NCBI GenBank assembly: GCA_017417585.1
Contig: JAFPYX010000099.1
Coordinates: 1-64,000 of the forward strand
Direction of reading: 5' to 3'
DNA: 64,000 bases
From: Victivallales bacterium
GTDB lineage: Bacteria > Verrucomicrobiota > Lentisphaeria > Oligosphaerales > Oligosphaeraceae
In this document: positions 44,354 through 45,780 of the stretch, in pieces
How the letters are laid out: the number at the start of each line of letters is the position of its first letter
Position numbering within the stretch: position 1 is the stretch's first letter
Notes under the pieces: generated by a model
Told to the model about the DNA's origin: nothing
Databases searched by the model: none
What the model saw: only the letters and a program-made list of their open reading frames with translations
Position numbers and translations under genes: made by a program

Positions 44354-44851
44354 CTACATGCAATCGCCCTGGTACAGGGAATAGACCATCCCCAGCAATT
44401 CGCCCGGGCGCAATTCCTCGCTGAAAGTCAGCACGATATTCGACCAGCTTGTGCTGTCACCGCGATAGAGCTTTTTCCCCTGGATGGTGAAAACGATATT
44501 CGACCAGCTCGTGCTGTCGCGACGATAGACTTTTCCCTCACGGTAGGTCAGGAGGATATTCGACCAGCTTGTGCTGTCACCACGGTAGAGCTTTCCATCC
44601 TGGTAGGTATAGATGATATTTGACCAGCTCGTGCTGTCACCCCGGTACCACTTGCCCTTCTGATACGTATAGACGATATTCGACCAGCTCGTGCTGTCAC
44701 CGCGATACCACTTGCTACCCTTGACGGTGAAGATGACATTCGACCAGCTCGTGCTGTCGCCGCGGTAGATCTTGATCTCTTCTTCCCCTGCACACAGCTG
44801 CATGCCGAAAAGAACCATCAGGAAAATGACACCGAATTTTATGGATTTCAT
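44354..44851 (-). CDS. Secreted six-repeat YRGDSTSWSN protein
   Basis: A 165-residue protein with a signal peptide (residues 1-22, hydrophobic FGVIFLMVLFGMQL). Six tandem 20-residue units (about 27-146) of pattern K-x-Y-R-G-D-S-T-S-W-S-N-(I/V)-hydrophobic-x-T-x4-G follow, then a short tail ending CM. Alternating polar/hydrophobic residues suggest two short strands per unit and a beta-propeller, flower or solenoid. Five of the six units have RGD; unit five has RRD. I do not recognise a named family. It is flanked by the radical SAM gene (convergent) and the pseudopilin gene (same strand). Confidence 0.8.
   Translation of the reverse strand: MKSIKFGVIFLMVLFGMQLCAGEEEIKIYRGDSTSWSNVIFTVKGSKWYRGDSTSWSNIVYTYQKGKWYRGDSTSWSNIIYTYQDGKLYRGDSTSWSNILLTYREGKVYRRDSTSWSNIVFTIQGKKLYRGDSTSWSNIVLTFSEELRPGELLGMVYSLYQGDCM
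44414..44773 (-). repeat. Six 60-bp tandem repeats in the YRGDSTSWSN gene
   Basis: Period is exactly 60 bp. The core GATATTCGACCAGCT (plus-strand sense) is nearly identical in all copies, while the outer third of each unit varies, which indicates recent amplification or gene conversion with selection on the core. Confidence 0.92.
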
Positions 44852-44976: not shown

Positions 44977-45780
44977 CTAGATCGTCAGGTAGTTGACGTA
45001 GGTCTGGGTGCCACTGATGTTTTGGTAGCGCGGGTTGCAGCGCCACATATTCGGGTCTTCCCGGCTCCACAGCCAGAGAATGCCATAGGGGGTGACAGTC
45101 TCCACATGGCCGTCGAAGGACGTAAAATTGATTTTCCCGGAATGGCTGGCTGCATTGAGGGGATACCAGGTGCCGTTGGTGAGCTTACCAGGATAATACC
45201 AGTCAAAGTTGATGAAGCAGCTGTAGTCCGAGGCGACCTGGGCGGTGTCATACTTTATGGGCGTGGAGTCGGCCATCCAGACAGCATAGCTGGGCTTGCC
45301 GCCAAGACTCAGGAAAAGGCTTTCCTTGACAGGGACGCGCGGGTCAGTGCTGAAATTCGGTTGGATTAGCCCCGCGGTGGAATGATTCACACCATAAGAG
45401 AGATTCTGGCGGATTTCATCACGGTTAGCCGTAAACACGCTCATGTCCTGGGCATTGATTTTGCTCAAGGTCCCAGCCAAGTTGTATTTGCTGGAGGGGC
45501 ATTCCAGCGCCTTGCCGGCGATATTCTCATTGACACGCAGGGCGATCTGGAACGGCAGCCAAGTCACGTTGGCGGCCTGACCGAGCGCGGAGATGAAGTA
45601 GCCATCGTTGTCCTGTGTATACATCGCATGGTAGAGTCCCAACTGCTTCATGTTGTTGACGCAGCCAATGGTTCGGGCTTTCTCGCGGGCCTTGGAAAGA
45701 GCCGGAAGTAGCATGGACGCCAGAATGGCGATGATCGCAATGACAACCAGCAGTTCAATCAGGGTAAAGTTCTTTTTCAT
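44977..45780 (-). CDS. Pseudopilin-like secreted protein with H-X9-DG motif
   Basis: A 267-residue protein with a class III prepilin start: MKKN then [19 protein letters not shown], with Glu5 of the mature form present and Asn rather than Gly before the cleavage site. The C-terminal part has [15 protein letters not shown], the prepilin-processing-associated H-X9-DG motif. Hundreds of such genes occur per genome in Lentisphaerota, Verrucomicrobia and Planctomycetes. The reading frame extends upstream, but ATG 45780 gives the proper prepilin start. Role: probably an envelope or exported protein assembled by a type II/IV-like system; precise function is unknown. Confidence 0.88.

Follow-up and report, generated by a model that had tools for sequence, protein, structure and literature searches.

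The 64,000-nucleotide stretch of a Victivallales bacterium genome analysed here, referred to below as the window, carries a gene for a protein built almost entirely of six 20-residue units and belonging to the six-fold beta-flowers (PF21786). This protein is an ordinary addition to a fold family that is known but functionally dark, and what it contributes is a set of petal loops that change in concert. The account that we favour, and consider rather probable, is that of a secreted six-fold beta-flower whose equal rim loops are kept so by the copying of short tracts inside the gene, with selection for petals that match acting alongside. The positions of the gene and its parts are given in Table 1.

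Table 1. Location of the beta-flower gene and its features in the window.
Feature	Residues	Positions	Strand	Basis
Putatively secreted six-fold beta-flower gene (PF21786)	165 aa	44354..44851	-	ORF, Pfam E 4.4e-32
Likely signal peptide	1-22	44786..44851	-	by-eye cleavage site; residues 1-20 low-confidence in model
Unit (petal) 1, RGD	27-46	44714..44773	-	unit pattern
Unit 2, RGD	47-66	44654..44713	-	unit pattern
Unit 3, RGD	67-86	44594..44653	-	unit pattern
Unit 4, RGD	87-106	44534..44593	-	unit pattern
Unit 5, RRD	107-126	44474..44533	-	unit pattern
Unit 6, RGD	127-146	44414..44473	-	unit pattern
Unit 1 loop core, DSTSWSNV; homogenised 24-base block that recurs every 60 bases	32-39	44735..44758	-	
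Predicted C-terminal helix	149-160	44372..44407	-	DSSP H149-160 of model

The open reading frame starts with ATG and encodes a hydrophobic N-terminus, six units in perfect 20-residue register and a C-terminal tail; at an offset of 20, 70 of the 123 mature positions match, whereas 2000 shuffles gave 8.7 on average and never more than 19. An earlier, sequence-only reading had described six near-identical 20-residue repeats, five of them bearing RGD, and both statements hold, five units reading YRGDSTSWSN and the fifth YRRDSTSWSN. In this fifth unit the Gly of the triplet has given way to a basic residue both in the window protein and in its relative L014 (KKN), from a Lentisphaeria metagenome-assembled genome of sheep colon, a place-specific feature in two proteins that are 46% identical. 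Export may be inferred from the hydrophobic N-terminus and a plausible signal-peptidase I site, both judged by eye. Lipoprotein attachment, seen in some beta-flowers, has no counterpart here in the form of a lipobox: a small residue is expected before the Cys, and the sole early Cys, C20, is preceded by Gln-Leu (by eye, from the translation). One copy of the gene was found in the 3.26 Mb genome assembly.

Although the sequence-only reading could place the protein in no named family, hmmscan against Pfam assigns it to PF21786.3 (Bflower_3, “6-fold beta flower protein”) with an E-value of 4.4e-32 and 111.1 bits, past the curated cut-off of 34 bits, the match spanning residues 28-146 and profile positions 1-119 of 125; the same cut-off is passed by all ten relatives scanned (10/10). 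NCBIfam gave no meaningful match, and neither did a sequence search of the PDB (best E 0.94). Beta-flowers are barrels with four-, five- or six-fold symmetry, made of short hairpins whose long loops all lie on one side of the barrel, frequently with a C-terminal hydrophobic helix and in some cases with lipoprotein attachment motifs; they have been compared with Tubby and scramblase-like proteins, including 1zxu, and the description of the fold shows no function for them (Durairaj et al., 2023, PMC10584680). In clan CL0395, which holds the beta-flowers and Tubby, a motif [DNEQ]XXG is semiconserved at the hairpin tip (PMC10584680). None of the six units of the window protein contains a literal match, units 2 and 3 showing a shorter QXG there, and because 9 of 11 relatives likewise have no match in any unit, with those of L010 and L039 sitting in the loop and not at the tip, the motif is not defining for PF21786 and the filing of the window protein therefore rests on its Pfam score.

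Structure prediction, which had been suggested as a check, supports a regular repeat fold. Modelling with AlphaFold2 from two sequences, the window protein and L014, gave a best model with pLDDT 85.4 and block means of 91-96 over residues 31-150, two of the five models from this pair having a pLDDT near 33, while a model built on the window protein by itself came out poor (64.6). In the best model, DSSP assigns twelve short strands, from E25-30 to E139-143, that make up six equal hairpins and are followed by the C-terminal helix, and the modelled repeat runs six times through a strand, a loop of five residues, a single turn of helix at Trp-Ser-Asn, a second strand and a tight turn. The hairpin fold is thus supported by the model. 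Foldseek with both models returned no PDB match at E<=0.001, a lack of significant matches that PMC10584680 likewise reports for its flowers. A second structural comparison placed 1zxu first, as the only PDB entry with Z>5 (Z 5.7, rmsd 5.9, 98 residues, a weak match; the next scored 2.8), and at so low a Z it is taken as corroboration and no more. The barrel may be closed and six-fold symmetric, the modelled hairpins being regularly spaced and the Z to 1zxu low, and the helix at residues 149-160 may fill it, as in other beta-flowers (PMC10584680). Were the repeats to form an open solenoid like those of choline-binding or toxin repeat domains, and not a closed flower, the weak Foldseek matches of the single-sequence model (E at least 0.06), some with choline-binding domains and others with repeats of clostridial toxins, would find a place; we judge this arrangement very unlikely, since with the two-sequence model the choline-binding matches are gone among the matches listed and the toxin matches stand at E 0.36 and worse, the best match of that model in the second comparison is 1zxu, and the Pfam family is named as a six-fold flower.

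The likeness of the units is concentrated in the loop. With the loop core taken as unit positions 6-13 (24 bases) and the scaffold as the other 36 bases of the 60-base unit, nucleotide identity between the window units is 0.950 in the core, 0.598 in the rest and 0.739 overall; unit pairs are not independent, and these and the following uniformity statistics are therefore descriptive. The earlier description of the DNA copies as highly uniform accordingly fits the loop core and fails for the rest of the unit. A 12-protein comparison was made of the window protein and 11 relatives with regular units (64 relative units), L010 contributing three units by a first pattern and all five by a wider one; left out of the counts were L016 (the same protein as L014), L040 (0 units by pattern) and, for want of a regular unit set, the longer or distant members of the group L012, L013 and L020-L037. 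In each relative a loop of its own recurs in five or six copies. Identity of loop residues is 0.91 within a protein versus 0.49 between proteins, and that of scaffold (strand) residues 0.51 versus 0.42. Between species, strand residues agree better at the same unit index (0.473) than at another (0.410), a difference that 0 of 500 shuffles reach and that is weaker with interior units alone (16 of 500); loop residues have no such effect of place (0.524 at the same index, 0.526 at others).

Synonymous codons follow the same division. For unit pairs in the window that encode the same residue, with expected agreement taken from usage in neighbouring genes, 87 of 100 loop pairs share the codon against 0.40 expected (0 of 1000 simulations), and 43 of 89 scaffold pairs do so against 0.42 expected (195 of 1000 simulations). 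When codons are shuffled within each protein, the loop excess has P<=0.026 in 11 of the 12 proteins (0.056 in L019), and a scaffold excess at P<0.05 appears in L010 only, where the scaffold has been homogenised too. The loop-minus-scaffold difference in synonymous identity runs from 0.40 in L011 down to -0.03 in L015, where it is absent, being strong in the window and L011 and small in L017, L018, L009, L019 and L010. On the average of all 12 proteins, the synonymous excess peaks exactly at positions 6-13 when an 8-codon block is placed at each of 20 circular shifts.

These data bear on two other explanations of the uniformity. A gene recently re-grown from one 60-base unit, whose loops are alike only through protein-level selection stronger than that on the strands, would agree with strands that are also closer within a protein than between proteins (the 0.51 and 0.42 above) and with the existence of five- and six-unit members, both in one genus (G024 with five, G018 with six). 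It would also lead one to expect equal synonymous divergence, however, and the window shows 0.87 agreement in the loop against 0.48 in the strands, while strand features hold their place between species; because it leaves scaffold codons at background unexplained, we do not favour such regrowth and consider it rather doubtful. Of the recent expansion or conversion put forward in the sequence-only reading, conversion is supported in part, for the loop core only, and recent expansion of whole units is not supported by the identities and codons of loop and scaffold. Selection at the DNA or mRNA level, and not copying, might keep the loop codons, and a uniform block so sharply bounded is what it could produce; yet the preferred codons differ among relatives at the same residue, Ser-11 being AGC in all six units of L011 and TCG or TCA in all six of the window, and such selection appears unlikely.

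On the favoured account the six hairpins would form a shallow barrel, a fold supported by profile and model, with each long loop, or petal, placed on the same rim should the barrel close and with the C-terminal helix presumably in or at it. Six copies of the loop would then present a six-fold ring of Arg, Asp, Ser/Thr and Trp, a candidate working surface that would lend itself to weak contact, at many points, with a membrane or a polymer. Copying of short tracts within the gene, by gene conversion or by slippage between the 60-base repeats, would keep the loop alike, as the codon data suggest, selection for matching petals would act together with it, and the strands would retain their own place-specific sequences while the loops homogenise. 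More tentatively, and with the chances rather against it, short-tract conversion might spread a new loop round the ring and so replace the loop in all petals of the six-fold display at once, in which case binding specificity could shift in one step between species with the barrel keeping its place-specific residues. A petal rim loop under concerted change offers a testable clue for a functionally dark family, and a ligand should therefore be sought there.

The RGD triplets, from which integrin binding had been proposed, call for a different explanation. In the model, Arg ends a strand and Gly-Asp begins a loop, and the triplet is probably exposed. Six RGD loops acting as a multivalent adhesin for host integrins would be in keeping with this position of Gly-Asp, with five exact RGD in one secreted protein and with the single RGD, as RGD-S-T, seen by eye in each of six longer, distant PF21786 proteins (L012, L020, L022, L023, L027 and L037). 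The sequence-only reading had itself made the idea hinge on homologues that keep the unit also keeping the RGD, and they do not: at the unit triplet, RGD is found in 0 of the 64 units of the 11 close relatives, which read RGN (9), KGN (8), KGD (8), KGW (6), KGS (5), RGT (5), RGW (5), KGY (4) and others, L011 from the genus of the window having KGT, RGT and TGT. With such readings neither Arg nor Asp is kept, and apart from the triplet the loops remain of the same kind; on these homologues integrin adhesion is rejected, and we attach hardly any probability to it. The single RGD of the six longer distant proteins suggests that the triplet is one of several readings of a family [RK]G[DN]ST-like consensus, and judged from these sequences RGD in the loops has the look of a chance trait and not of a device for binding integrin. 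Under the favoured account, RGD would be this species' reading of a consensus [RK]-G-[D/N/S/T/W...], multiplied by copying; five successive RGD triplets can come from repeat homogenisation and are not in themselves evidence of host binding.

At E<=0.001, PF21786 is present in 6 of 59 relatives; among 29 genomes of the family 5 have it, among 197 of the class 23 do (16 of them above the cut-off), and among 387 taken from the phylum 17 do (12 above the cut-off), these sets overlapping. Its distribution is patchy: in the genus of the window, one of the three other genomes has it. One bacterial family holds both five-petal (L008, L010) and six-petal (L009) members, all of which match the six-fold Pfam model. 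A second architecture, in which proteins some 190-240 residues long have flower-like units of [YF][RK]G[DNS]S type at both ends and a less regular middle, is seen in L012, L020, L021, L022, L023, L026 and L027. No relative of the flower protein was found in viral contigs or plasmids. A phage search yielded one unannotated faecal record with a 28% match (MT837148.1, L041, “Bacteriophage sp.”), which looks like a bacterial fragment, with ferritin-like, DsbD-like and cysteine-synthase-like frames, and was set aside as a phage.

The neighbouring genes in the window (MarC-like, PLP enzyme, pyridoxal-type kinase, radical SAM, DUF1559 pilin-like, alpha/beta hydrolase, flavodoxin and PHP) give no hint of function. 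A tblastn search of window ORFs of at least 100 aa against nine relative stretches at 1e-8 found no conserved neighbour beside the gene, its only match besides the repeat (on both strands) being one of 27% in L049; in L042, a stretch from the same genus, the flower gene lies at the very end. A DUF1559 pilin-like gene adjoins the flower gene in the window (44977-45780, minus strand), and one recognised by its N-terminus only adjoins it in L044 (4910-5641, minus strand), where window ORFs have no tblastn match at 1e-8. DUF1559 pilin-like genes are common in this group, and the adjacency in the two stretches is probably due to chance. A promoter scan found no promoter-like site upstream of the flower gene, its four minus-strand matches falling inside the repeats.

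Among known systems, the window protein stands closest to Bflower_3 (PF21786; PMC10584680), with which it shares a near full-length profile match, six units, a C-terminal helix and an export signal (by eye), and from which it is set apart by a loop that reads RGDSTSWSN and by near-identical petals with homogenised codons; the terms “concerted”, “gene conversion” and “RGD” are absent from the main text of PMC10584680. The Tubby C-terminal domain and phospholipid scramblase-like proteins (clan CL0395, 1zxu), which form a 12-stranded barrel around a helix (PMC10584680), supply the best match in the second structural comparison, and compared with them the window protein is bacterial and putatively secreted, with shorter strands and loops and a near-perfect internal repeat. 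As for the manner of change, the repeats within one gene are homogenised and evolve in concert in spider silk genes as well (PMC3933166), but here homogenisation mainly affects 24 bases out of every 60-base unit, in a protein that is predicted to be a closed six-fold barrel.
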